DNA from: Microcaldota archaeon
GTDB taxonomy: Archaea > Micrarchaeota > Micrarchaeia > Micrarchaeales > CABMGC01
Reading direction: 5' to 3'
Length of the DNA stretch: 41,407 bases
Assembly: GCA_021803245.1 (NCBI GenBank)
Contig: JAJZLT010000008.1
Span: 1 to 41,407 of the forward strand
The position numbers and the translations under genes were made by a program. Shown one piece after another: positions 2,514 to 39,967 of the stretch (the stretch's first letter is position 1; each line of letters begins with the position of its first letter). Under the pieces are notes generated by a model that saw only the letters and a list, made by a program, of their open reading frames with translations, had not been told where the DNA came from and did not search any database.

Positions 2514-3569
2514 GTGGTTATAATGGAGAAAACTACGAAAAAATCAAAATCAAAGCAGATAAGCAAGGTTAGGGATAGTGAGACCGAGGAAGTCTTTGAT
2601 GATGCACCGCAAGCGAAGCAGCCCGTAGCTGCAAGGGCGGCGGCGGTTCCGCAAGGCGGCGCAGAGATAAAGAAATGCCCCAGCTGTGGCAGTTTGGACG
2701 TTATCTTTGACAATGAACGAGGAGAGTATATCTGCAACAACTGCGGCTTGGTAATAGAGGAGAATGTTACCGATGTAGGGCCGGAGTGGCGCGCGTTTGA
2801 CTCTGACCAGAGAAATGCAAGGGCGAGGACAGGCGCTCCGATAAAGTACATGAAGCCCAACAAGGGGCTGGTCACTGAAATAGACATGTATAACAAGGAC
2901 ATACGAGGCACCAAGCTGCCTTCTAAGAGGCAGGCACAGCTCTACAGGATGAGGAAGTGGCACAAGAGGGCGAGCATAGCGAGCTCAAGCGAGAGAAACT
3001 ATCTGGTGGCGCTGCCTGAACTCAACAGGGTAGCAAGCTATCTGGGCTTGCCGGACAACATACGCGAGCAGACAGCGCTTCTTTACAGGCAGTGCGTGAA
3101 GAATAATCTTATAAGGGGAAGGCCGATAGAAACTGTAGTAAACGCAGCGCTATATGCAACATGCAGAAGCGCAGGAATGCCCAGGACCCTTGATGAGATC
3201 TCGCAGATCTCAAATGTCTCGAAGAAGGAGATAGGCCGCACATACCGCATAATAGCGCATGAACTTAATCTTAAGATACCGCTGACCGATCCTTCGAGCT
3301 ACGTGCCGAGGTACGTTGCCGCGCTGAAGCTGAGCGGCGAGGCGCAGGAGAAGGCCATGCTACTGCTTAAGCAGGCGATGAAGAAAGGCCTGATAAGCGG
3401 AAGGAGCCCTACAGGCGTGTCCGCAGCGGCAGTTTATATAGCAGGCGCACTGGTTGGCGAGAGGAGGACCCAGAAGGAAGTGGCTGATGTGGCAGGAGTA
3501 ACAGAAGTCACCATAAGGAACAGATACCGGGAGCTCAAGCAGGAGCTCAGCATAGACGTGAACCTTTAA
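2514..3569 (+). CDS. tfb: Transcription initiation factor IIB (TFB); likely start ATG 2523
   Basis: Zn ribbon CPSCGSLDVIFDNERGEYICNNCG, B-reader region PEWRAFDSDQRNARARTGAP, two cyclin-like repeats. Confidence 0.97.
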   Translation: MVIMEKTTKKSKSKQISKVRDSETEEVFDDAPQAKQPVAARAAAVPQGGAEIKKCPSCGSLDVIFDNERGEYICNNCGLVIEENVTDVGPEWRAFDSDQRNARARTGAPIKYMKPNKGLVTEIDMYNKDIRGTKLPSKRQAQLYRMRKWHKRASIASSSERNYLVALPELNRVASYLGLPDNIREQTALLYRQCVKNNLIRGRPIETVVNAALYATCRSAGMPRTLDEISQISNVSKKEIGRTYRIIAHELNLKIPLTDPSSYVPRYVAALKLSGEAQEKAMLLLKQAMKKGLISGRSPTGVSAAAVYIAGALVGERRTQKEVADVAGVTEVTIRNRYRELKQELSIDVNL

Positions 3570-7613: not shown

Positions 7614-8609
7614 ATGCGTTATTTATTATCGAATTACACGGTGAATGTTTTGGCTGAAAAACTTATTATAATAGGCGCCGGGCCGGCAGGCCTTTCTGCT
7701 GCCATATATGCATCTAGGGAGGGATTTGAACCGTTAGTGATAGGTGGCATGGGCGGTGGCCAGCTTGAGCTAACGAGTGTAGTTGAAAACTATCCCGGCT
7801 TTCCTGAAGGGATAGATGGTCCGAAGCTCATAAGCGATCTGAAAAGGCAGGCTGAGCACTTTGGTGCCAGGTTCGTATATGAATTCGTAAATAAAGTGGA
7901 TTTCAACACAAAGCCGTACAAGATATTCACAGACGGGAATACGTATGAGGCTGATGCGATTATAGTGGCTACTGGTGCTGATGCAAGATGGTTGGGTATT
8001 GAATCAGAGAAAAGATTCCGCGGGAAGGGCGTCTCAAGCTGCGCCACATGCGACGGCGCATTTTTTAAAGGGGCGAGCGTGATAGTAGTCGGCGGCGGAG
8101 ACACTGCCATGGAAGATTCCCTTTTCCTGACCAGATTTGCCAAGAGCGTGACAGTAGTGCACCGGAAGAATGAGTTTAGAGCCAGCAGGATAATGCAGGA
8201 AAGAGTCTTGCATAACGATAAGATAAACGTTATATGGAACAGTACTGTAGAAGAGATAAAAGGAGATTCCAGGGTCAATGGAGTTGTACTGAAGAACGCT
8301 TTGACTGGGCAGACACAGGAACTTAAGATTGATGGTGTTTTCATAGCTATAGGATACACGCCCAATACAAAGCCATTTGCAGGAAGTCTGCCGCTGGACG
8401 AACAAGGTTACATTATAACTAAGGATGAGGTACTTGTAGATAGGAAGGATGGCATTTTCATAGCAGGCGATGTCGCTGACCACTATTATAGGCAGGCGGC
8501 AACGGCTAGTGGAAGTGGAGTTAAATGCGCCATCCGGGCAAGGGAATACCTATCAAATCTTTATTATGAGAAAAAAGAGGGAAGCGGGAGCAGCGAATCT
8601 GCGCATTAG
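7614..8609 (+). CDS. trxB: Thioredoxin reductase
   Basis: IIGAGPAGLSAAIYASRE FAD motif, CATCDG redox motif, GGGDTAMED, IFIAGDVAD. Confidence 0.95.
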   Translation: MRYLLSNYTVNVLAEKLIIIGAGPAGLSAAIYASREGFEPLVIGGMGGGQLELTSVVENYPGFPEGIDGPKLISDLKRQAEHFGARFVYEFVNKVDFNTKPYKIFTDGNTYEADAIIVATGADARWLGIESEKRFRGKGVSSCATCDGAFFKGASVIVVGGGDTAMEDSLFLTRFAKSVTVVHRKNEFRASRIMQERVLHNDKINVIWNSTVEEIKGDSRVNGVVLKNALTGQTQELKIDGVFIAIGYTPNTKPFAGSLPLDEQGYIITKDEVLVDRKDGIFIAGDVADHYYRQAATASGSGVKCAIRAREYLSNLYYEKKEGSGSSESAH

Positions 8610-10625: not shown

Positions 10626-11669
10626 TTGGGTTTCTTGAGTTTTCAGGGATATTCAATAGTTACTTCACTAATAGCAATAATGCTTGCAGTTAGCGGGATA
10701 TCCTTGGGCTTAGGCTACGCATTGAATGAAAAGCGACTTAAGGATTTTGGAAGGGATTGGATTATCGAATCGATAGTAAATGGAGCCTTGGTAGGAGGGC
10801 TAGCAATATTATTTTCAAATGGAGGGATAATAAGCACTATGATATATTCAGTTACCGTAAGCAATGGTACAAGTATAAGTTGCCAGAGTTTTATGCAAAA
10901 CAATGCCGCCTTGTGCCTTGCTTATGACTATTTAGTTGGCGCAGGCAGCTATACGGTATTTGGAGTGCAGCATAGTTCTGTTCTTACGAGCACAGCAACA
11001 TTGACAACAGGGCTGTTAGGCATAAATGTATTATTGGGCCTTATAGGGTCCTTGAACATAGGGTTTGGCTTTGTTAATCTCTCGTTTAGCTCCCTGGTGA
11101 TGCCACTTATGAATGAAATGCAGTACTTTATAAAATTATTAACAACTATTATGATAGGCATAACTGTCCAAGCTGCATTGTTAATAGCCGTATCTACTGC
11201 CACTTTGACTCTTATATTGCCTGCAGGAATAATAGCCAGATCTTTTTATCCTACTAAGAAAGTCGGAGCGTTCTTGCTGGCACTTGGAATTGGATTATAT
11301 ACTGTTTTTCCACTATCTTATCTCTTTGATGCTGTATTGGCAAATAATTTATCTTTAAGCATAAATAGCAGCAGCATTATTCAGATAACGAGCCAGGCAC
11401 AAAGCCTGCAAAATAGCATGACGCAGGTAACAGAATATAGTAATCAAAGCCATGTCAGCACATTCATTCAGCCAATAATTAGCGCGGCTTCGTCTTTAGG
11501 CAATTCTATATCGAATATATTGAATGGATTGATTTTAGATGTCTCATACTTCATAATCTATTCTTTTGTCCTACCGGCATTTAGCCTGGTGGTTACCGGG
11601 ATTTCGGTTAGGGAGCTTACACAGATTTTAGGGGCGGATGTGAATTTGAGCTGGCTCAGCATGCTGTGA
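10626..11669 (+). CDS. VirB6/TrbL/CedA-like polytopic membrane protein
   Basis: Multiple TM segments; central LPAGIIARSFYPTKKVGAFLLALGIGLYTVFPLSYLF block; position between pilin-like and VirB4-like genes. Confidence 0.6.
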   Translation: MGFLSFQGYSIVTSLIAIMLAVSGISLGLGYALNEKRLKDFGRDWIIESIVNGALVGGLAILFSNGGIISTMIYSVTVSNGTSISCQSFMQNNAALCLAYDYLVGAGSYTVFGVQHSSVLTSTATLTTGLLGINVLLGLIGSLNIGFGFVNLSFSSLVMPLMNEMQYFIKLLTTIMIGITVQAALLIAVSTATLTLILPAGIIARSFYPTKKVGAFLLALGIGLYTVFPLSYLFDAVLANNLSLSINSSSIIQITSQAQSLQNSMTQVTEYSNQSHVSTFIQPIISAASSLGNSISNILNGLILDVSYFIIYSFVLPAFSLVVTGISVRELTQILGADVNLSWLSML

Positions 11670-11673
11670 TGTT

Positions 11674-12393
11674 ATGGCTGATGAACAATTTGGTAGAAAG
11701 ATTTACTCTTATGTTTTCTATGTATTCGCAATTATAATCTTCTTTACATGCTTGCTTTTAAATCATACATGGCTTGTTCTGATATCTTCTGTATTGCTTT
11801 TATTGGCTGCCTTATATTTTAATAGTGGGCACATAATAAACAATATCCTAATTAGAAAGTCAAAAATAATTGAGGTGGCCGGGGCATTTAAACTAAGCAC
11901 AGAAACCAAATCAGTATTTAGGAAACTTGGAAGTAAATATGCAAGTTATTCGGTGGCTATTCTCTCTTATGATAGAGGATATAATTTTTCGCAGGAGGCC
12001 TTTGCATCCTTTATAATGAGTATAGATGAGCCATTCGAGTTTTCTATAGCATTAGAACAACTAGACACGCGAAAACTAATGGAAAACATTGAGACAAAGA
12101 TTAGAATGAAGGAACTTAGCCTGAAGAAAATAGGCCCTGCAAAATATGATCAGATTTCTAGGATAAAGAGAGACATTGAAATATTGAATAATGAGCTAGG
12201 CCGGCTGCGCGATAATAACAAGAATTTCAATTTGATTATGCGGCTGAAATCTTATGCAGAATCATACAGCGGCCTTGAGGCTGCGAGAGCTTCCATAAGA
12301 AACCTTGAGAAATTATGTGTTTCTTTCTCTTCGTCCTTAGGCGTAGGCTATAGGATAGTGGAAGGTGAAGAGCTTCTTGGGATTGTCGGGTGA
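11674..12393 (+). CDS. VirB3/PrgI-like membrane hairpin fused to a VirB4 N-domain-like region
   Basis: Two N-terminal TM helices, then FASFIMSIDEPFEFSIALEQLDTRK…RIKRDIEILNNELGRLRDNNKNFNLIMRL…EAARASIRNLEKLCVSF; directly precedes the ATPase gene. Confidence 0.5.
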   Translation: MADEQFGRKIYSYVFYVFAIIIFFTCLLLNHTWLVLISSVLLLLAALYFNSGHIINNILIRKSKIIEVAGAFKLSTETKSVFRKLGSKYASYSVAILSYDRGYNFSQEAFASFIMSIDEPFEFSIALEQLDTRKLMENIETKIRMKELSLKKIGPAKYDQISRIKRDIEILNNELGRLRDNNKNFNLIMRLKSYAESYSGLEAARASIRNLEKLCVSFSSSLGVGYRIVEGEELLGIVG

Positions 12394-12397
12394 ATAT

Positions 12398-13516
12398 ATG
12401 GCAAACATTAGTCCTGGAATCTCTGAGATATCGAAATTCTTCAATGTACCGATACTACAAGAGCCAGATTGCAGGCAGTACGGCAAGGACAGCTTGCTGT
12501 TAGGCTTCTCAGAGGCCTTAGCCGCCCCAATATTCCTGGATTTGAAATCAAAAAATAATCCGCACATCTTTGTAACTGGAATGAGCGGCTCAGGGAAAAC
12601 ATATTTAATGAGGAGTCTTATCTGCAGGCTTAATCTCATGCTTGATTGCCTCGTCTTTGTTATCGATTTTACAGGAGAATACAGAGATCTGGTGTTGTAT
12701 CTAGGTGAAGTGGAAGCGAATTCGGGGGATAGCAGATTTATAGAAAAAATCGATTCAGGAATTGTTTATTTTAACCTAAAGTCTTTGAAAGAAGCTGAAA
12801 AAATCCAGAGGTGCAAGTCTCTGATACAGAAACTTCTGGAAAAAATGAGATCTAGAACCATTAATGAAGAAAAGCAGATGTTCATACTGCTTGATGAGGC
12901 TTGGAAAGTTTTGGGAGAGGATGGCATACTGGAGGCGATAATTAGAGAGGGCAGAAAGTACAACGTTGGGATAATTTTAGCATCCCAGATAATTGAGGAT
13001 ATTGAGGTTTCTGTGCTATCCAATATGGCTACACTATTCATTTTTAGAATTCAGAATCAGGATAGCCTGAAGCATCTTTCCAGCAACTATAACATAAGCA
13101 ATGCCATGCTCCAAAAAATTCAGAACTTTTCTGTGGGCCAATGCCTGCTTATTCACCTGGCGAAGAATGGAGATATCGATTTATTGCCTATCAGAAGGGT
13201 TTTTGGCGTTGATATTTACAGTGCTTTTGAAATTTATTTTGGTGATGTAAAAATGGATGTAATAATTGATGATTTCTGCAGGGAAATTTCTAACCTGTGC
13301 AAACAGGATGCCTCTGACCTGATTTCTAGGATAAGGAAGGATAAGTCAATAGGATTGAGTGAACTAATAAAGGAGCTGTTAACACTGAATGCGGGAAGAT
13401 ATGAGTTGCTGGCTTACCTTAGGCGGCTTGGCGTAAGTGATTCGGACATTGCAGATGGCTTTTCTATGGCAGTAGAAGGTATTTTAAATGAAGATCGTAA
13501 GCTATTCCAAGTTTAA
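12398..13516 (+). CDS. VirB4/TraC-like ATPase (P-loop domain); ORF open from 12365, start likely ATG 12398
   Basis: Walker A VTGMSGSGKTYLM, VFVIDFTGEYRDL, Walker B MFILLDEAWKVLG, REGRKYNVGIILASQIIEDI. Confidence 0.85.
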   Translation: MANISPGISEISKFFNVPILQEPDCRQYGKDSLLLGFSEALAAPIFLDLKSKNNPHIFVTGMSGSGKTYLMRSLICRLNLMLDCLVFVIDFTGEYRDLVLYLGEVEANSGDSRFIEKIDSGIVYFNLKSLKEAEKIQRCKSLIQKLLEKMRSRTINEEKQMFILLDEAWKVLGEDGILEAIIREGRKYNVGIILASQIIEDIEVSVLSNMATLFIFRIQNQDSLKHLSSNYNISNAMLQKIQNFSVGQCLLIHLAKNGDIDLLPIRRVFGVDIYSAFEIYFGDVKMDVIIDDFCREISNLCKQDASDLISRIRKDKSIGLSELIKELLTLNAGRYELLAYLRRLGVSDSDIADGFSMAVEGILNEDRKLFQV

Positions 13517-14171
13517 ACTGTATTCGAAGATAAGAATAGATGCAAAATTAACCATGACACAGGATAGGCTCAGGGAGGAGATTGCTTTCTTTCCCTACAT
13601 GAAGCCATTAAAATCTAGAAGGGAACTGGCGTACTCGATAGAGATGGCTGGAGCCAGTGATCACTCGTATTTCATAGATTTCAAAGAAGATTGTATAGAA
13701 TTCCTGATTTTTTCAGAATCAACTCCCCAATTCTTTCTAAGAGATGCCATAGTGAAGGTGATCTTGATTTTATCAAACCTGAAATCGGTTTATTCCATAG
13801 ACTATTCTGCTTTACTTCCATATATACAGCAGGCATTATCAGCAGAACATGTATCTGAAGCTAGGAAAATGGCGGACCGGGCGTCTAATTGCAATAGAGA
13901 CCTTGATCTGGCCTTTTCTAAGAGAATAATAGAACTGAAAAAACAAAATGCCGCAGCCAAGGAATCACTGCTTTTATCAAATAAGAAAGTGGCAAAACTG
14001 TTCTCTGAATTTATAATCCAGAAGAGCGGCAGCCGGTTTTCTCTAGACTCTGCCGCAAAAGACAACAATTTAGAAGAGGGGGAATTGAATGAAGCAATTG
14101 CTTATCTGGAAAGTCGCGGCTACAAAATTTCTAAACACGAAAACAATCTTATAAGCCTGGTGAAAGCATGA
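13488..14171 (+). CDS. Uncharacterised protein with C-terminal winged-helix-like region, T4SS-like cluster
   Basis: 227-aa ORF overlapping the upstream gene end; C-terminus FSLDSAAKDNNLEEGELNEAIAYLESRGYKI. Confidence 0.65.
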   Translation: MKIVSYSKFKLYSKIRIDAKLTMTQDRLREEIAFFPYMKPLKSRRELAYSIEMAGASDHSYFIDFKEDCIEFLIFSESTPQFFLRDAIVKVILILSNLKSVYSIDYSALLPYIQQALSAEHVSEARKMADRASNCNRDLDLAFSKRIIELKKQNAAAKESLLLSNKKVAKLFSEFIIQKSGSRFSLDSAAKDNNLEEGELNEAIAYLESRGYKISKHENNLISLVKA

Positions 14172-14767
14172 TGCGCATATTCATGCCTCTTGTAAAAGAG
14201 TTTTTGATACTTGGGGCGGGTTTACTTTTAATGTTCGTAACAAGAAAATTATCCGAAAGGGCGCAGAAATTTGTCATATATATGGACACCGATACGCTAT
14301 TTTATAAGAATAATCAGCTCTTAGCTCAGGAAGGCAGCTATCCACTGCCTGCTAGATACAACGAATTGGCATTTGGCAGGTTAGATGGTAAATCCGAAAT
14401 TTTAGGCGCAGATATCTTGGATATTGCAGATATGAAAGTTGATGAGCGCGTATGGAACGGATATTTTTTAAAAAGCGACCTGTTTTATAATGCGGTTTTT
14501 GAAAGAATTGCTAAAGACATGCTAATAACAAAGGGAAAGTTAAATAAGACATATTTAACAAAGGATGGGAAGTTGCAGAGGCTTCCAAAAACAGCCAGGA
14601 TTTATAACATATCTCAGATTCGCATGCTGAAGCTGGACGGAGATGATAAGATATCTATTCTTCCGAGCAGTTTTGACCTGTTCCTGGAGAAACTAGTTTT
14701 TTGTGGCAAGTCTTCAATTATTAATTGGTATTTTTACTCTGCCCAGGGGACGCTTTTGAATGGTTGA
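14168..14767 (+). CDS. Single-pass membrane protein of unknown function, T4SS-like cluster
   Basis: 199-aa ORF; N-terminal TM followed by a soluble domain; overlaps upstream stop codon. Confidence 0.7.
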   Translation: MMRIFMPLVKEFLILGAGLLLMFVTRKLSERAQKFVIYMDTDTLFYKNNQLLAQEGSYPLPARYNELAFGRLDGKSEILGADILDIADMKVDERVWNGYFLKSDLFYNAVFERIAKDMLITKGKLNKTYLTKDGKLQRLPKTARIYNISQIRMLKLDGDDKISILPSSFDLFLEKLVFCGKSSIINWYFYSAQGTLLNG

Positions 14768-14972
14768 TTTAATGGGACTGGTATTTGGCTTTTTATTGCT
14801 AATTATCAAGATAAGCGGAGTGCTTTCCAGCCTTATAATAGATCTCTTGATTGTGAGCTATTTTATTTCAAGGCCAAAGAATGCTAATCCGCTATTGATT
14901 AGATCCCTTTACGGGTTTCTTGCTCTCTTTTTAGTAACAATATGCACTATGGTGATTTTACCTCTAAGATAG
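14760..14972 (+). CDS. Small two-TM protein, T4SS-like cluster
   Basis: 70-aa hydrophobic ORF overlapping the upstream gene. Confidence 0.6.
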   Translation: MVDLMGLVFGFLLLIIKISGVLSSLIIDLLIVSYFISRPKNANPLLIRSLYGFLALFLVTICTMVILPLR

Positions 14973-14998
14973 ATATAATTTATAGAAGGGGCTTCAGA

Positions 14999-15238
14999 AT
15001 GAACAATGCACTTTACAGTGCCATTGCATCTGCAGGAATTGCAGCTTCCATGGTAACAGCAGTAATAGCTTTAGGCATATCCGTAGATTATGCAATAGAA
15101 TTATTTTGCATATGGAGCTTAGTATTTGCACTTGTTTTATTCTATTTTTCGAAATTTTTTATAGCCGAAAATAAAATTATGCTACTGTGCCTTGTCAATA
15201 TTTTCATAGCATTATTTAGCATGCGTATTTTCTGGTGA
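14999..15238 (+). CDS. Small polytopic protein (about three TM), T4SS-like cluster; start likely ATG 14999
   Basis: Hydrophobic ORF immediately upstream of the 727-aa ATPase gene. Confidence 0.6.
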   Translation: MNNALYSAIASAGIAASMVTAVIALGISVDYAIELFCIWSLVFALVLFYFSKFFIAENKIMLLCLVNIFIALFSMRIFW

Positions 15239-15242
15239 CCGT

Positions 15243-17426
15243 ATGGATCATTTGATTCCTTATAAAATAATTTCGATACCGGAAAATCTTGATAAAAAGC
15301 TTTTGTTGGAATCGATGCTTTCAGATGGTTTTTTATTATATTACGATTTCCTTAACACAAACTTGCTAATCTTTGTACGTGATGAAGAGGAAGTAGCCAG
15401 ACTATCGAAGGTATCTGATGGGCTAGTATTCGAAGGGGCGGATTGTGAGCCTGAATTGGCAGATTTGGAATATATTACATTTTACGGATCCTCTGAGGAT
15501 GTACTAGGTACAAGTAATATTTGTAGAATATTTGAGGGAATTAAAGGAGGCCTGTTTTTATCATTCTCCAGAACGGATTCCGCGCATATAAAGCAGATTA
15601 AATCAAAAATTGAAAAACTTATGAGCGATAAAGGGGTCAGGGTCACCAAAAATGCCGATAGGAATATTTTAGGGTATGGTAGCCATTCTGAACAGAAGGA
15701 CCTTTATTACGATTCGGAAGAAAGAAAGATTTATCTTTCAATACTTGATAATTTGGATGAGATAGCTTTGAGCAATGGTTTGTCATATAAGGTTTCAATA
15801 ATATTAAACGGAAATATAGAGAAATCAATAAGATACCTGGAGTCTAGATCTTTCATATTTGAGCACTTTAAAATAACTGCAAGGGATATTGCTTCTCTAT
15901 TCGATATTGCAAAGAAGGCAGATGCAATGCCTTTTTCGTATAACTTGGCATCTGGATTCATGGGCTTTCCCGAATCAGTAAAGAGAGAGCACATCATAGA
16001 GACGTATAATAAAAAATATGTAGGAGACTTGCTATTGGGAAAGTGCTTGCATAATTCAGCAAATGAGACTAAAAACAGCTTCTTATTGAGCAGTTCTACA
16101 CTAAATTTGGGCACTCTCATGACAGGAATGCCTGGAACCGGAAAGACGATGGCTGCAATGAACCTTATATTGCAGGTTAAAATGCATGCCTGCAAGCACG
16201 TGATAATAGTATCTCCTACAGAGGAGTGGTCTGCATTTGGAGAGGAAAATGGGATACAGGTAGTGAGCTTGTCCGATGAAAGGTTGAGGATAAATTTCTT
16301 CAGGTGCGAGAAGGAACATGATATAATCAGATTTTATGAAAATCTGGCAATGCTCTTGTCCTCTGCTGCTGATGCTGGGCCATATAAAAGTTCGATGGAG
16401 AAATGCTTGCTGGATGCTTTTAGCAGGATTTATAATGACAATCCAGATCCGGATCCCCAGGAAGTTTATTTTGCGATAGAAGAATCGGTAATAGAGCAGC
16501 ATGGCAAAAGGACAAATACAGGGGTAAAATACACAAAGCATGGAGAGAATATAAAAGCAGCACTGGAAAGCCTCAGGCTCATGCTCTTAAAACCGCAATT
16601 TGCTTACAATGGAGGCTTAAATTTTAGCGAATTGATAAGCGAGGGAGTCATTTTTGATCTTTCGCACGTAAGCAACACTATGAAACCGTTCTTTTACGCT
16701 ATGATACTTAATAAGATATACGAATTTAGCGATTCCTTGGATGTTTATGGTGACAGCAAGCTAAGAATGGTTATAGGGATAGAGGAAGCACAATTGATTT
16801 TTGAGAATAGCGAAAAATCTGCTGCGACTACTGATTTAAAGCAGAGAATCCAGGATTTCAGGAAAAAAGGGGTGGGATTGCTATTGATTACCCATGCCGT
16901 AACTGACATAAATGTGAGCATACGCAGATTATGTCAAACCAAGTTTTATTTCAGACAGAGCGCAGAAACAGCAAAAGCTGCAGCGTCGGATCTGATCTTC
17001 AATGAAGATAAATTAGATCAGGTCATTGATAAGTTAAAAATCTTGGGACAGAAGATTTGTGCGGTAAATTGTATTATTGAGGCTCTGGCTGGCAAGGTTC
17101 CGGACAATTCAGTCTTCATTAAAACTTCGGATTTCAAGGTACCTGCGGTAGATTCACAAAAAACGGATAAGAAACATAAAAGAAGAAAGGAAGATACAAT
17201 AGTTAAGATTCTTATTCAGAATATGCCTGCCAGTGGTATTAAGGCTGAAATTAGGTATATAGGAATGCCTATCTTTAAAGGGGAAACAGGCTTGGAGGGC
17301 ATTATATCCACCGACAGGCCGCTGAAAGACAAAAGGCTTGAACTTATCATATTGAAAGAGAGGGCAAGGGATTGTAAGCATTTTAATATAGTGGGGGGTA
17401 GCGAGAGCATAATAAAGCTGGATTAG
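15243..17426 (+). CDS. HerA/VirB4-superfamily ATPase (large, 727 aa)
   Basis: Walker A MTGMPGTGKTMAAMN, VIIVSPTEEWSAF, VIFDLSHVSNTMKPFFYAMILNKIYE, Walker B-like RMVIGIEEAQLIF, RKKGVGLLLITHAVTDI. Confidence 0.85.
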   Translation: MDHLIPYKIISIPENLDKKLLLESMLSDGFLLYYDFLNTNLLIFVRDEEEVARLSKVSDGLVFEGADCEPELADLEYITFYGSSEDVLGTSNICRIFEGIKGGLFLSFSRTDSAHIKQIKSKIEKLMSDKGVRVTKNADRNILGYGSHSEQKDLYYDSEERKIYLSILDNLDEIALSNGLSYKVSIILNGNIEKSIRYLESRSFIFEHFKITARDIASLFDIAKKADAMPFSYNLASGFMGFPESVKREHIIETYNKKYVGDLLLGKCLHNSANETKNSFLLSSSTLNLGTLMTGMPGTGKTMAAMNLILQVKMHACKHVIIVSPTEEWSAFGEENGIQVVSLSDERLRINFFRCEKEHDIIRFYENLAMLLSSAADAGPYKSSMEKCLLDAFSRIYNDNPDPDPQEVYFAIEESVIEQHGKRTNTGVKYTKHGENIKAALESLRLMLLKPQFAYNGGLNFSELISEGVIFDLSHVSNTMKPFFYAMILNKIYEFSDSLDVYGDSKLRMVIGIEEAQLIFENSEKSAATTDLKQRIQDFRKKGVGLLLITHAVTDINVSIRRLCQTKFYFRQSAETAKAAASDLIFNEDKLDQVIDKLKILGQKICAVNCIIEALAGKVPDNSVFIKTSDFKVPAVDSQKTDKKHKRRKEDTIVKILIQNMPASGIKAEIRYIGMPIFKGETGLEGIISTDRPLKDKRLELIILKERARDCKHFNIVGGSESIIKLD

Positions 17427-25231: not shown

Positions 25232-26455
25232 ATGCCAAAGGTTTTGATAATCGGCGCGGGAGGTGTAGCCAGGGTTGTAGCCCATAAATGCGCGCAGGTA
25301 CCAGAGGTTTTCGATAAGATAGCAATTGCGAGCAGGACTATATCAAAATGTGAGGAGATACGTGAGGAAATAAGAGAGAAGACCGGGCGCGAAATTGAAG
25401 TCGCGCAGGTAGACGCAGATAATGTCCATGAATTGGTTGCTCTGATAAACAGGGTAAAACCATCTATTGTAATCAATGTGGCGTTGCCGTATCAGGATCT
25501 CAGCATAATGGACGCCTGCCTTGAGGCAAATGTCAATTATCTGGATACGGCTAACTACGAACCGAGAGATATTGCGCATTTTGAATACAGCTGGCAGTGG
25601 GCATATGACAGCAAATTCAGGGAAAAGGGACTCATCGCGATACTCGGATGCGGTTTTGATCCAGGTGTATCAAACATCTTTTGCGCATACGCGCAAAAAA
25701 ATATCTTTGATGAGATAAAGTATGTGGATATTTTAGACTGCAATGCAGGAAACCACGGCCATGCTTTTGCCACGAACTTTAACCCTGAGATAAACATACG
25801 TGAAGTGACTCAGATAGTCAAATACTGGGAAGATGGCAAGTGGATTGAAAAACCGCCTATACTTGAATCTGATAGCACGCATTTCAGCTTCGACTATCCG
25901 ATTGTAGGAGCCAACGAGAGCTATCTGCTCTACCACGAAGAATTGGAATCGCTGGCTAAGAATATAAAAGGGTTGAAAAGAATAAGGTTCTGGATGACGT
26001 TTTCTGATAACTACCTGACACACTTAAGGGTCCTTAAGACTGTAGGAATGACAAGAATAGACGAGGTAGATTACGAGGGGAAGAAAGTTGTTCCGATAAG
26101 ATTCCTTAAATCACTGCTTCCTGATCCTGCCAAACTTGGCACAAATTACACCGGAAAAACAGTTATAGGAGATATAATAACAGGCAGAGACAGGAAGGAT
26201 GGCAAGGAAAGATCCATATACATATACAATGTCTGCGATCATGCAGAATCATACAGGGAAGTCGGAGCGCAGGCAATATCATATACTACAGGCGTTCCGG
26301 CCATGATCGGAGCCATGATGGTCCTGAAGGGAGTATGGAAGGGCAGCGGCGTATTCAATGTGGAGCAGCTTGACCCGGATCCGTTCATGGAAGCCCTAAA
26401 TAGATATGGATTGCCTTGGAAACAGGTCGAATTCAATGGCAAATTGCCGGATTGA
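25232..26455 (+). CDS. Carboxynorspermidine synthase/dehydrogenase-like (saccharopine dehydrogenase-fold)
   Basis: VLIIGAGGVARVVAHKCAQ…; NVALPYQDLSIMDACLEANVNYLDTANYEP; GCGFDPGVSNIFCAYA; adjacent to an NspC-like gene. Confidence 0.85.
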   Translation: MPKVLIIGAGGVARVVAHKCAQVPEVFDKIAIASRTISKCEEIREEIREKTGREIEVAQVDADNVHELVALINRVKPSIVINVALPYQDLSIMDACLEANVNYLDTANYEPRDIAHFEYSWQWAYDSKFREKGLIAILGCGFDPGVSNIFCAYAQKNIFDEIKYVDILDCNAGNHGHAFATNFNPEINIREVTQIVKYWEDGKWIEKPPILESDSTHFSFDYPIVGANESYLLYHEELESLAKNIKGLKRIRFWMTFSDNYLTHLRVLKTVGMTRIDEVDYEGKKVVPIRFLKSLLPDPAKLGTNYTGKTVIGDIITGRDRKDGKERSIYIYNVCDHAESYREVGAQAISYTTGVPAMIGAMMVLKGVWKGSGVFNVEQLDPDPFMEALNRYGLPWKQVEFNGKLPD

Positions 26456-26467
26456 TGTGTTTTCATA

Positions 26468-27643
26468 ATGAATAGGAATTTTTATTTGGAGGAATTAGAA
26501 AATTTCCCCAAGCGGATAACCGATGCTGTTGAGAGCCCATGTTTTATTGTAAGCGAGACGATGATAAGAAAGAACCTTGAGATCCTGTCAAGAGTGAAGA
26601 GTGAAACAGGCGCAAAGATACTGCTTGCGCTCAAAGCTTTTGCGATGTATAAGGCTTTTCCCTTAATGCGCACTAAATTGGACGGCACATGCGCAAGCGG
26701 GCCTATGGAGGCCCGATTGGGATGCGAGGAATTTGGGAAAGAGGTAGTTACCTTTTCCCCTGCATACTCTGAAAAGGACATAAAAGAAGTGATAAAATAC
26801 TCCAGCATAGTGATATTCAACTCAATAAGGCAATGGAAGAAATACAGGGGTGTGATCGCCGGAAGCAGTAAAAAAATAGAGATCGGATTAAGGATAAATC
26901 CGGGCTATTCGGAAGTTGAAAAGGAGCTTTATAATCCTGCGGCAGCAGGCTCCAGACTTGGAATACGCCCGGAAGAACTTGAAGGAGAGGACTTGACCGG
27001 GATTGATGGGCTGCACTTCCATGCGCTCTGCGAACAGAATGCGGATGTGCTTGTTAGGGTTCTCAGGCGATTTGAACAAAAATGCTCGAAGCATTTAGAT
27101 GGTATGAAATGGGTAAATTTTGGAGGTGGGCACCACATAACAAGAAAAGATTATGATGTAGATCTGCTCATCGAGACGATAAACAAGTTCAAGAAGAAGC
27201 ACGGGGTTCAGGTATATCTGGAGCCGGGAGAGGCAGTGGTTCTTAATGCCGGTGTACTTGTGGCTACTGTACTGGATATAGTGCATAATGACATAGATAC
27301 GGCAATACTGGATGTCTCGGCCGAAGCGCACATGCCAGATGTACTTGAAGCTCCGTATCGCCCAAATATAATAGGCGCGGGGAAACCTGGAGAACAAAAA
27401 TGCAGCTACAGGCTTGGAGGACCGACATGCCTTGCAGGAGACGTTATAGGAGATTACTCTTTTGCAAAGCCGCTTAAAGAGGGAGATAGGATTGTCTTTC
27501 TTGATATGGCGCATTATACCATGGTCAAGACAACTACATTCAATGGCGTGCGGCATCCTTCGATAGCCCTGTATGACGGCAGCCGTGGTAAGCTCTCGGT
27601 AGTCAAAAGATTTGGATATGAAGCTTACAAGTATAAGCTTTAG
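26468..27643 (+). CDS. nspC: Carboxynorspermidine decarboxylase (PLP, alanine racemase fold)
   Basis: SPCFIVSETMIRKNLEIL…AKILLALKAFAMYKAFPLM; HFHALCEQNADVLVRVL; YLEPGEAVVLNAG; DVSAEAHMPDVLEAPYRP; GPTCLAGDVIGDY. Confidence 0.88.
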   Translation: MNRNFYLEELENFPKRITDAVESPCFIVSETMIRKNLEILSRVKSETGAKILLALKAFAMYKAFPLMRTKLDGTCASGPMEARLGCEEFGKEVVTFSPAYSEKDIKEVIKYSSIVIFNSIRQWKKYRGVIAGSSKKIEIGLRINPGYSEVEKELYNPAAAGSRLGIRPEELEGEDLTGIDGLHFHALCEQNADVLVRVLRRFEQKCSKHLDGMKWVNFGGGHHITRKDYDVDLLIETINKFKKKHGVQVYLEPGEAVVLNAGVLVATVLDIVHNDIDTAILDVSAEAHMPDVLEAPYRPNIIGAGKPGEQKCSYRLGGPTCLAGDVIGDYSFAKPLKEGDRIVFLDMAHYTMVKTTTFNGVRHPSIALYDGSRGKLSVVKRFGYEAYKYKL

Positions 27644-29084: not shown

Positions 29085-29768
29085 ATGATAGCTCTAGGCG
29101 TAGCGGCACATCCTGATGACCTTGATTTTGGCGCATCCGGCACATTTGCAAAATTGGCGAAAGGGGGCGCATCGTGTTATTATTTGATATGCACGAATGG
29201 GTGCAAGGGTTCTGACGACCCTAAGATGACAGAGGAGAAACTAATTGAGATAAGGAAAAGAGAGCAGGAAGAAGCTGGAAAGGTTCTCGGCCTGAAAGGC
29301 ATCTTCTTCCTAAATCACAATGACACCCAGCTTGTAGCCGATCTTGAGCTTAAGAAAGAGATAGTGAGGTTCATAAGGAAGCTGAAACCAGACCTGGTTG
29401 TGACTATGGACCCTACGCTTGTATACTCGAAGAGGGGCTTTGTCAACCATACTGATCATCGGGCTGCAGGGCAGGCAACGATAGACGCAGTGTACCCCAT
29501 GGCGCGCGACAGGCTGACGTTTAAGGAATTGGAGAAGGAGGGATTAAAGCCGCATAAAGTCAAGACTCTTTATCTGACAAACTTTGATAGCCACAATGAA
29601 GTTGTGGATATCAGCGAGACAATGGAAACAAAGGAGAAGGCTTTGGCATGCCATAAAAGCCAGGTTTCAGATGAGAGCATAGAATGGGTAAGGGAGATGG
29701 CGCATCTGGTTGGGAAAGAGAGAGGATACGAATTTGCTGAGGCTTTCGTAAAGCTAGAGCTGAAGTGA
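29085..29768 (+). CDS. PIG-L/LmbE family deacetylase (MshB/BshB-like)
   Basis: ALGVAAHPDDLDFGASGTFAKLAKGG (AHPDD motif); NHTDHRAAGQATIDAVYP. Confidence 0.9.
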   Translation: MIALGVAAHPDDLDFGASGTFAKLAKGGASCYYLICTNGCKGSDDPKMTEEKLIEIRKREQEEAGKVLGLKGIFFLNHNDTQLVADLELKKEIVRFIRKLKPDLVVTMDPTLVYSKRGFVNHTDHRAAGQATIDAVYPMARDRLTFKELEKEGLKPHKVKTLYLTNFDSHNEVVDISETMETKEKALACHKSQVSDESIEWVREMAHLVGKERGYEFAEAFVKLELK

Positions 29769-30931
29769 AGGAGATGGCGTTTCAGCTATTCAATTCAGCA
29801 AGCAGAAAAAAGGAGGTTTTCAGACCTCTTGGAGGAAAAACTGTTAAGATTTACGTGTGCGGCATTACGCCGTATGATACGACTCATCTCGGCCATGCTT
29901 TCACGTACGTCTCTTTCGATGTGCTGATAAGATATCTGGGATTCATGGGCTTCAGGGTAATTTACACCCAGAATGTTACTGATATCGACGATGATATACT
30001 CAGGAAAGCAGGGGAAGAAGGAACAGGATGGGAGAAGCTTGGCGACCGCTGGACAAGGAGATATCTTGCAGATATGAAAAGCCTTAATATGCTGAAACCT
30101 GACCATTATGTGAAAGCCACTGATTCCATACCCATGATAATCAGAATTGTGGACTCGCTCAGGAAGAAGGGATTTGCTTACGAGAATGGAGGGAATGTGT
30201 ATTTCGATGTAAGCCTGTTCAAAGGGTATGGAAAGCTTTCCAATTTCAACCACCGTCAGATGATGCTGCTGCTTAAAGAGAGGGGAGGTAATCCGGATGA
30301 TCCTAACAAAAGAAATCCTCTTGACTTTGTGCTTTGGCAGGGTTGGAAAAAAGGTGAACCATATTGGGAGACGCCATGGGGCCGCGGCAGGCCGGGCTGG
30401 CACATAGAATGCTCGGCAATGATAAGGCAATACCTTGGTGAGCAGATTGACATACATGGCGGGGGCCGCGATCTTATCTTTCCGCATCATGAAAGCGAAA
30501 TTGCGCAGTCAGAGAGCTTTACAGGAAAAGCCCCGTTTGCGAAGTACTTCGCACATACAGGAATGGTAATGCACATGGGAGAGAAGATGGCAAAATCGCT
30601 TGGAAATCTGATTCTAATCTCGGATCTGCTGAAAGAATATTCGCCGAATGCGATAAGATGGATGCTTCTTTCACACCATTATAGAAGAGTGTGGGAATTT
30701 GACAGAGATGAGCTCGCGGAGGCGGAAAAAATCGCAGGCGGAGCATGCAGATCTGCTAAAGCAAGTGGAAATGGCAGGATCAGGAAGTCCCTCCTTCAGG
30801 AATTTGCCGCGCTGATGGATGACGATTTGGATACGCCGAACGCACTGGAACTGATAGAGGAAGCAGCAGAAAACAAGGAGAATGGCAGGACCGTAAGGCT
30901 GATGATGAAAACGATGGGTTTCATACTTTGA
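29765..30931 (+). CDS. CysRS-paralogous cysteine ligase of MshC type; alternative start ATG 29774
   Basis: IYVCGITPYDTTHLGHAFTYVSFD, QNVTDIDDDILRKA, RNPLDFVLWQ…GRGRPGWHIECSAM, KYFAHTGMV…GEKMAKSLGNLILISDLL…AIRWMLLSHHYRRVWEF; only 388 aa with no CysRS-length C-terminus. Confidence 0.8.
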   Translation: MKEMAFQLFNSASRKKEVFRPLGGKTVKIYVCGITPYDTTHLGHAFTYVSFDVLIRYLGFMGFRVIYTQNVTDIDDDILRKAGEEGTGWEKLGDRWTRRYLADMKSLNMLKPDHYVKATDSIPMIIRIVDSLRKKGFAYENGGNVYFDVSLFKGYGKLSNFNHRQMMLLLKERGGNPDDPNKRNPLDFVLWQGWKKGEPYWETPWGRGRPGWHIECSAMIRQYLGEQIDIHGGGRDLIFPHHESEIAQSESFTGKAPFAKYFAHTGMVMHMGEKMAKSLGNLILISDLLKEYSPNAIRWMLLSHHYRRVWEFDRDELAEAEKIAGGACRSAKASGNGRIRKSLLQEFAALMDDDLDTPNALELIEEAAENKENGRTVRLMMKTMGFIL

Positions 30932-37924: not shown

Positions 37925-39967
37925 TCAGCAGCCGCAACTGCCTCCGCAGCCGCATTGGCCTTCCTTGCCTTCGCCTTCCATCTCAGCTCCGCCGCAGCCG
38001 CATGAGCCCGATGCATTGCCGCAGGCACATGAATCTTCATTCTTGCCCTCCTTCTGCACTGCAGGCTTTGCTTCTGCTGCCTTTGCAAGTGGCACGCCTG
38101 ATTCCTGGACTGTTTTGCCGGATTGCCCCGCTGCTCCGGCAGCCATCATTATCTGCGCCACAGGCCTCTCCTGGGCTGGCTGCTTGGCAATCTTCTCTGC
38201 CCTTATCTTTGCAGCCTCATCAAGATTGACCTTGAGGCTGAAGTAATCAGTGCCCTTGATGTACGTGCGCTGGTAGGCTTCTGTCGCTTCGAGCGCCTTC
38301 ACATTCCTTATGTACTTGTCGCTGTGGTAGGTCCAGTCGTGGTGCATCTCCTGCCACTCCTTTGAAGGTATCGAGTATTGCTTCTGTATCTTGTCCCTGT
38401 AGACTTCAGGGAAGACATTGAAGGTGCAGAATGGAAGCACTCTGCCATCAGGCATTGCATAGTGTATGTCGCACTTTTCCACGCGCTTTATATCGTAAGT
38501 GTACTCGTCCTGGAAGTGCATCATGCCTATGAACATCGACTTTAGCTGGAACGCGCCCATTGTTGCAAAGTCATGCTTGAAGATTACAGACATAAGCAGC
38601 TTCGAGAAGTTTACCGACTTCGGCTGCTTCTCCTTGTCTATGAATCTGCCAAGCCTGGCAACAGCCTTCAGCGCTATCAGCCTGCGCTGCAGCTTCGACT
38701 TTCCGCCCATCTCGTTCACAGCATTCTGCAGATGCTCAAGAAGGCCAGGTGCATCCACAAACCTTGTAAGAGGCACTATCTTGCCGTCGCTGTCCTGGAA
38801 GATGTAGGAGCCTGCGCCGCAGGCAAAGTGTATTGAGAGATCATACTTGTACTCTCCGGTAAGCGCTTCTATGAACTTGTTTATCCCTCCAACATATGGC
38901 ACCGAGAACCAGTCATCTTTTGTTATTACGCCGTTTGTCTGCTCCTCTATGAGTTTTATCGCTCCGGGAATGGTTATGCGCTGCTTCTCGCGCATCCTTG
39001 TAGGCATTCGTCCTACAAGCGAGACAGGCTGGAAGTTTACGGCTTTTATGACATCGTTGTTGTTCAGTGCGAAGTTTATTATATTGCCAAGTTCGTGGTC
39101 GTTTATGGTCCTTATCACAGTAGGCACAAGCACAACGCCTATTCCTGCCTTTCTTACCGCGTCGAGTGTCTTCGGCACTTCCCAGTGGTTCTTTGGGTTT
39201 GCGCGCTTGCTTACCCCGTCGAAGCTCATGTAGAGCGTACTTACGCCTGCGTGCCTTAGCTTTGCTGCGAGTTCAGGCTTCTCTGCAAGTATTATTCCCG
39301 TAGTATTCATCTGTATCTGGTCGAAGCCGGCTTCTTTTGCTGACTTCACTATCTCAACCACATCGCTCCTCATCAGCGGCTCTCCGCCTGTTATCTGAAG
39401 GGCATTGGCAGGTATGGGCTTCTGCGACTTGAGCTCCTTGAAGATCTTGTAAAGCTCATCGCGCGTTGGCTCGTATATAGGCTCGCCCTCCTTTGCGTAG
39501 AAGAAGCAGTACCAGCATGAAAGGTGGCACCTGTTTGTTATTACAACGTTTGCAAGGCCTGTGTGCGACTTATGCCTCTCGCAGATTCCGCAATCGAACG
39601 GGCAGTTCTCGCCCTTATTTACGTAGTTCGGATTATCAAAGCCTCTGCCGAAGTAGTTGTAGTTCTTCATGCGCATATACATGTCATAGTCCTCCCAGTA
39701 CTTCTCCATGGTCCAGCCATGGTCAGGGCAGAACTTTCTTATCATTACTATGTCTCCGTCCTTATAGATTGTGCCATCTACTATGAGCTTGCACTCCGGA
39801 CAGACTGTCTTTGTGCGCTCAAGCACAGGCATCTTGTTTACCTCTTCCATGGTTCTCCGGTATGGAGCCATTAGCTTGTCTTCGCTGGTGTTTACCATCT
39901 TTACCGTCATGCCTGCGTCAGTTGCCTTGTCTATTATCGAACCTAATGCTGATGACTTATCGTTCAT
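37925..39967 (-). CDS. tes: Radical SAM protein of tetraether lipid synthase (Tes/GDGT-MAS) type with Cys/Gly-rich C-terminal tail
   Basis: CPECKLIVDGTIYKDGDIVMIRKFCPDHGWTMEKYW; NCPFDCGICERHKSHTGLANVVITNRCHLSCWYCFFYAKEGEPIYEPTRDEL; ALQITGGEPLMRSDVVEIV. Confidence 0.85.
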   Translation of the reverse strand: MNDKSSALGSIIDKATDAGMTVKMVNTSEDKLMAPYRRTMEEVNKMPVLERTKTVCPECKLIVDGTIYKDGDIVMIRKFCPDHGWTMEKYWEDYDMYMRMKNYNYFGRGFDNPNYVNKGENCPFDCGICERHKSHTGLANVVITNRCHLSCWYCFFYAKEGEPIYEPTRDELYKIFKELKSQKPIPANALQITGGEPLMRSDVVEIVKSAKEAGFDQIQMNTTGIILAEKPELAAKLRHAGVSTLYMSFDGVSKRANPKNHWEVPKTLDAVRKAGIGVVLVPTVIRTINDHELGNIINFALNNNDVIKAVNFQPVSLVGRMPTRMREKQRITIPGAIKLIEEQTNGVITKDDWFSVPYVGGINKFIEALTGEYKYDLSIHFACGAGSYIFQDSDGKIVPLTRFVDAPGLLEHLQNAVNEMGGKSKLQRRLIALKAVARLGRFIDKEKQPKSVNFSKLLMSVIFKHDFATMGAFQLKSMFIGMMHFQDEYTYDIKRVEKCDIHYAMPDGRVLPFCTFNVFPEVYRDKIQKQYSIPSKEWQEMHHDWTYHSDKYIRNVKALEATEAYQRTYIKGTDYFSLKVNLDEAAKIRAEKIAKQPAQERPVAQIMMAAGAAGQSGKTVQESGVPLAKAAEAKPAVQKEGKNEDSCACGNASGSCGCGGAEMEGEGKEGQCGCGGSCGC

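Follow-up and report, generated by a model that had tools for sequence, protein, structure and literature searches.

A PIG-L deacetylase and a CysRS paralog grouping with MshC, encoded side by side in Micrarchaeota, as a candidate pathway for a cysteinyl-glucosamine thiol

Mycothiol and bacillithiol are protective thiols of bacteria, and thiol protection in most archaea is largely an open question. In the bacterial pathways, enzymes of the MshB/BshB type remove the acetyl group from a GlcNAc compound, whose freed amine MshC or BshC then joins to cysteine (PMC7278568). MshC shares the catalytic fold of cysteinyl-tRNA synthetase (CysRS), with its HIGH and KMSKS motifs and zinc cysteines, and has no anticodon-binding domain (PDB 3c8z, 8hfm; TIGR03447); in the MshC of Mycobacterium smegmatis, C43 and the loop 44-GITPY-48 have been described (PMC9736012). 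BshC (PF10079) carries out the analogous step in bacillithiol synthesis. According to a review published in 2020, the mycothiol genes, including that of MshC, are absent from archaea, and the archaeal homologs of BshA and BshC are found mostly in Asgard (PMC7278568). No paper naming both Micrarchaeota and mycothiol was found in the literature searched, which mostly excludes subscription journals.

The window analyzed here, meaning the whole stretch of 41,407 nucleotides, comes from a genome (G000) of 872,604 bases, 80% complete. The host is an archaeon, as the preliminary description had supposed, and belongs to the Micrarchaeota: its named relatives are Micrarchaeota MAGs (identity 91-64%), and the contig carries archaeal genes such as those of TFIIB (2514-3569) and of a radical SAM protein with an HMPTM zinc ribbon (37925-39967). 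The archaeon carrying the pair is tiny, has a small genome, and probably depends on a host. Both open reading frames of the pair lie where the preliminary description had placed them and carry the motifs it quoted. Their features are the following:

29085-29768, plus strand: PIG-L/LmbE-family deacetylase, predicted GlcNAc-X de-N-acetylase, 227 aa (PF02585, 102 bits)
29106-29120, plus strand: A-H9-P-D11-D12, the metal/catalytic motif (HXDD) of PIG-L; H9, D11, and D12 invariant
29448-29459, plus strand: H122-T-D124-H125 of PIG-L, H125 being the third metal ligand; H122, D124, and H125 invariant
29765-30931, plus strand: putative MshC-type cysteine ligase, a CysRS paralog without an anticodon-binding domain, 388 aa (PF01406, 380 bits)
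29852-29899, plus strand: YVCGITPYDTTHLGHA, with the zinc ligand C32, the MshC-type GITPY loop, and the HIGH motif (from the alignment)
30260-30310, plus strand: MMLLLKERGGNPDDPNK, the segment bearing the MshC-type insertion, which reads MLTLFAERGGDPDRPGK in M. smegmatis (from the alignment)
30401-30499, plus strand: zinc site consisting of C216 (HIEC) and H241...E245 (HHESE) (from the alignment)
30584-30598, plus strand: KMAKS, the KMSKS nucleotide-binding motif; K274, K277, and S278 invariant

The ligase gene was described as overlapping the stop codon of the PIG-L gene. This holds if translation starts at GTG, giving 388 aa and an overlap of 4 bases (GTGA); an ATG three codons further on (29774), giving 385 aa, fits the starts of the orthologs equally well and leaves a gap of 5 bases instead. 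Whichever start is used, the two genes are adjacent and probably co-translated. The C-terminus is incomplete in comparison with CysRS, as had been remarked, and is so throughout the family: since the orthologs are likewise about 378-397 aa long, as against about 470-500 aa in the CysRS of the same phylum, this is a family trait and not a truncation. The anticodon domain is absent from 20 of 20 orthologs, and the window ligase matches the CysRS model as far as position 375 of 466. AlphaFold modeled the two proteins from few usable sequences and with low confidence (pLDDT 59 and 54).

The CysRS catalytic core, the zinc ligands, the HIGH and KMSKS motifs, and the lack of an anticodon-binding domain, by which MshC is recognized, were all found in the archaeal ligase, and its zinc cysteines and GITPY loop agree with the MshC crystal structures (PMC9736012). 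The alignment showed 11 positions at which the archaeal ligases share with MshC a residue rarely found in CysRS; these include T40 (THLGHA), W89, M166, the block E172-R173-G174...P177 with its insertion, and L282. Every archaeal and every MshC sequence has T40, which none of the 24 CysRS shows; M166, E172, R173, G174, and P177 are likewise common to the archaeal ligase and MshC, the column of P177 being a gap in 23 of the 24 CysRS. The archaeal ligase has both the GITPYDxTHLGHA stretch and the ERGGDP insertion of MshC. In blastp comparisons, the window ligase is nearer to the MshC of Nonomuraea (42.6%) than to the CysRS of its own genome (38%).

The same relationship emerged from a tree of 47 sequences (19 archaeal ligases, 13 Micrarchaeota CysRS, 11 other CysRS, and only four actinobacterial MshC, which stand on a long stem), built with no outgroup and no CysRS* sequences: a branch with support of 100/100 separates the archaeal ligases and MshC from the 24 CysRS. 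When the ERGGDP insertion and the divergent ligase of genome G240 were removed, the split was recovered (99/97), and the archaeal set formed one group (99/99) beside MshC. AU tests rejected both the grouping of the archaeal ligases with Micrarchaeota CysRS (p=0.006) and that of MshC with actinobacterial CysRS (p=0.02). The resemblance to MshC rather than to CysRS which had been read from the motifs is therefore borne out by the tree. With the MshC model TIGR03447, the window ligase scores 393 bits and the archaeal set 350-399 bits, as compared with 243-310 bits for CysRS and 615-692 bits for true MshC, and neither the window ligase nor its orthologs reach the cut-off of 485 bits. Besides scoring below the family cut-off, the archaeal ligase is only 37-43% identical to MshC and adjoins a deacetylase gene. 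Because it keeps the zinc ligand E245 of CysRS, which is replaced by S or G in actinobacterial MshC, the archaeal set is a relative of MshC and not MshC itself. The G240 ligase (L072:5759-6895) is the most divergent archaeal one (52-53%) and stands beside MshC in the tree (94/75); here HHEDT replaces HHESE, so that the E245 ligand is missing as in MshC. An apparent in-frame TAG in its gene proved to be merely the stop preceding the ATG.

The PF02585 domain, the HXDD motif, and the additional histidine of the metal site place the partner protein in the LmbE-like/PIG-L superfamily, together with BshB1/BshB2, MshB, and the archaeal diacetylchitobiose deacetylases (Dac). H9, D11, and D12 are invariant in 19 sequences; in a review of LmbE proteins, H9 and D12 are described as ligands and D11 as the general base (PMC4101496). 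R57 and D80, the probable counterparts of R68 and D95 in MshB, are invariant too, and the substrate residues do not vary. The catalytic motifs are complete in PIG-L and in the ligase alike. However, the window protein scores below every NCBIfam cut-off (BshB1 95, BshB2 75, Mca 53, and MshB 38 bits), and its nearest solved relatives are the Dac enzymes (162 bits, vs 78 for BshB 6p2t and 82 for 2ixd). The label "MshB-like" first given to it is thus not especially apt, since it is nearer to Dac and BshB.

Orthologs of the ligase were identified in 20 of 301 Micrarchaeota genomes, including G000 itself; these belong to five genera and two families, and the identities range from 53 to 91%. The deacetylase beside the ligase proved to be its constant operon partner: PIG-L lies directly upstream on the same strand in 18 of the 20 carriers, the genes overlapping or being a few bases apart, and where paired it is the only PIG-L of the genome. 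PIG-L orthologs occur in only 22 of the 301 genomes, and the two genes co-occur with a Fisher P=4e-23, a value that overstates the association because related genomes are not independent. Apart from PIG-L, no constant neighbor was found across the carrier loci, the surroundings of which vary. In three close pairs of genomes, dN/dS was 0.03-0.12 for both genes (PIG-L 0.03-0.07, ligase 0.06-0.12): PIG-L and the ligase are both under purifying selection. More distant PIG-L proteins (54-61%) are found in G145, G185, G270, and G271, which have no ligase; at the four loci L106, L107, L108, and L109, where such a relative stands without the ligase, the surroundings differ in each case. Redox genes occur near a few carrier loci (MsrA at L063, a glutaredoxin-like protein at L056, a disulfide reductase at L069), and an MFS transporter gene adjoins the pair at L064 and L066; none of these is constant.

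Inositol-1-phosphate synthase (Ino1, PF01658) is absent from the 44 genomes examined and was detected in six control genomes. No MshA above the cut-off was found in 30 genomes (best 152 vs 462.5 bits), nor any BshA in 44 genomes (best 122 vs 273.7 bits), and BshC, which belongs to another protein family than the archaeal ligase, is absent from the 30 genomes searched. The lack of Ino1 in the 44 genomes makes it probable that the aglycone arises otherwise than in mycothiol, and the lack of BshC in the 30 genomes means that the ligase step differs from that of bacillithiol. Mycothiol proper was rejected in view of the lack of Ino1 in the 44 genomes, and is further unsupported because no protein passes the MshA or BshA cut-off, the ligase misses the MshC cut-off, and the deacetylase is nearer to Dac and BshB; bacillithiol proper was rejected for want of BshC in the 30 genomes. 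GT4 enzymes are present, and no dedicated glycosyltransferase was found: the two GT4 families of the host genome that were traced (C11 and C28) are widespread regardless of the presence of the pair. The families tested belong to the core genes and occur in carriers and non-carriers alike, so that the cassette may use a GlcNAc compound produced in most of these cells in any case, in which event it may be an accessory module acting on a core compound. A homolog of the GCS2-type gamma-glutamylcysteine ligase is also present in some carriers.

In the light of these data, the pair probably consists of a tRNA-independent cysteine:glucosaminide ligase of the MshC type and its deacetylase, together making a thiol of the form Cys-GlcN-X. 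PIG-L would take the N-acetyl group off a GlcNAc-X compound; the ligase would activate cysteine, held by its thiol at the zinc, with ATP to give Cys-AMP, and would then move the cysteinyl group onto the freed glucosamine amine without any tRNA. On this reading, the pair would account for the two final core steps of a pathway to a cysteinyl-glucosaminide. We infer the substrate, the product, and a role of the thiol in redox balance or detoxification from homology and from the established chemistry of MshC and MshB. Several observations speak against this reading: the ligase falls short of the MshC cut-off and exceeds that of CysRS, it retains E245, neither an MshA or BshA above its cut-off nor a dedicated glycosyltransferase was found, PIG-L is closest to the chitobiose deacetylases, some genomes have only one member of the pair, and some carriers have the GCS2-type homolog.

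Very different readings of the ligase are those in which it charges tRNA. It passes the cut-off of the CysRS model TIGR00435 (418 vs 340 bits), has a homologous catalytic domain, and shares the E245 zinc site with CysRS, so that it might be the genome's own CysRS, or a second, C-terminally trimmed one, standing beside PIG-L by chance. The genome, however, encodes a separate full-length cysS (C20, a frame of 481 aa, 41% identical to the window ligase), as the preliminary description had proposed to check, and a further CysRS-type match is present in 19 of the 20 carriers, the exception (G239) being only 60% complete. A sole or truncated CysRS was rejected on the strength of this separate enzyme, the further CysRS-type matches, and the tree. 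Neither a place among the CysRS nor the lack of another cysS, the two findings which had been set against the MshC-like reading, was obtained. Chance pairing is excluded since the pair is kept in 18 genomes with differing gene neighborhoods, and in view of the missing anticodon-binding domain and the constant PIG-L partner, a tRNA-charging CysRS is very improbable. The loss of this domain is identical to that reported for CysRS* of Desulfobacterales, which charges SelC* (PMC9437257), and the ligase might likewise serve a special tRNA; but its partner is a GlcNAc deacetylase and not selB or selC, and it groups with MshC (in a tree containing no CysRS*) and has the MshC insertion, which makes this explanation very improbable too.

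Two other readings concern the substrate of the pair. The same ligase chemistry might cysteinylate a larger glucosamine-containing molecule, such as a lipid, a glycan, or a surface polymer, instead of a soluble thiol: the best GT4 of the host (C11), which is present with or without the pair, resembles lipid glycosyltransferases and a GlcNAc-phosphatidylglycerol synthase model, and PIG-L proper works on the lipid GlcNAc-PI (PMC4101496). The fact that the substrates of MshC and BshC are small glucosaminides, and that PIG-L and the ligase are both assumed to be soluble, makes this explanation unlikely. PIG-L might also be a deacetylase of the chitobiose type, or else an Mca/Bca-like conjugate amidase, the amine substrate of the ligase being made elsewhere, as the closeness to Dac, the match of every PIG-L member to Mca, and the retention of the ligase in two genomes lacking any PIG-L, namely G175 (94% complete) and G240 (88%), would all allow; yet an only PIG-L that co-occurs tightly with the ligase and fits a step of the pathway speaks against it, and we regard this possibility too as rather unlikely. 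Returning to the cysteinyl-glucosaminide ligase and its deacetylase, we tentatively propose, as a possibility that is still somewhat doubtful, that the product belongs to a new family of archaeal low-molecular-weight thiols, in which the aglycone linked to cysteinyl-glucosamine would be something other than inositol or malate. The ligase making these thiols would form a sister group of MshC in archaea, and the two-gene cassette would have been passed between Micrarchaeota lineages. The occurrence of this sister group with a deacetylase in archaea having small genomes points to a cysteinyl-glucosamine thiol outside the bacteria, and the sister group itself bears on the origin of MshC. Automatic annotation would file the ligase as a cysteine--tRNA ligase, which would conceal enzymes of this kind.

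Other genes of the contig include a thioredoxin reductase gene (7614-8609, plus strand; TIGR01292, 380 vs 343 bits) and a series of HerA/DUF87-type ATPases together with small proteins of unknown kind (10626-17426), possibly a pilus or DNA-transfer-like cluster. At 25232-27643 (plus strand), a carboxynorspermidine synthase-like gene stands beside that of the carboxynorspermidine decarboxylase NspC (519 vs 409 bits), representing an archaeal polyamine route, and relatives of both these genes lie near the ligase/PIG-L pair at L063 (G150). Among viral contigs, 80 matches to the ligase were of the ordinary CysRS type, and no segment of the ERGGDP type turned up when their motifs were checked. A 191-kb IMG/VR contig (L212:3007-4104) encodes a CysRS-like protein of 366 aa with ACGITPYDFSHIGHA and without the MshC insertion, and several IMG/VR contigs of 200-600 kb (L217-L233) carry a full CysRS of about 425-460 aa.
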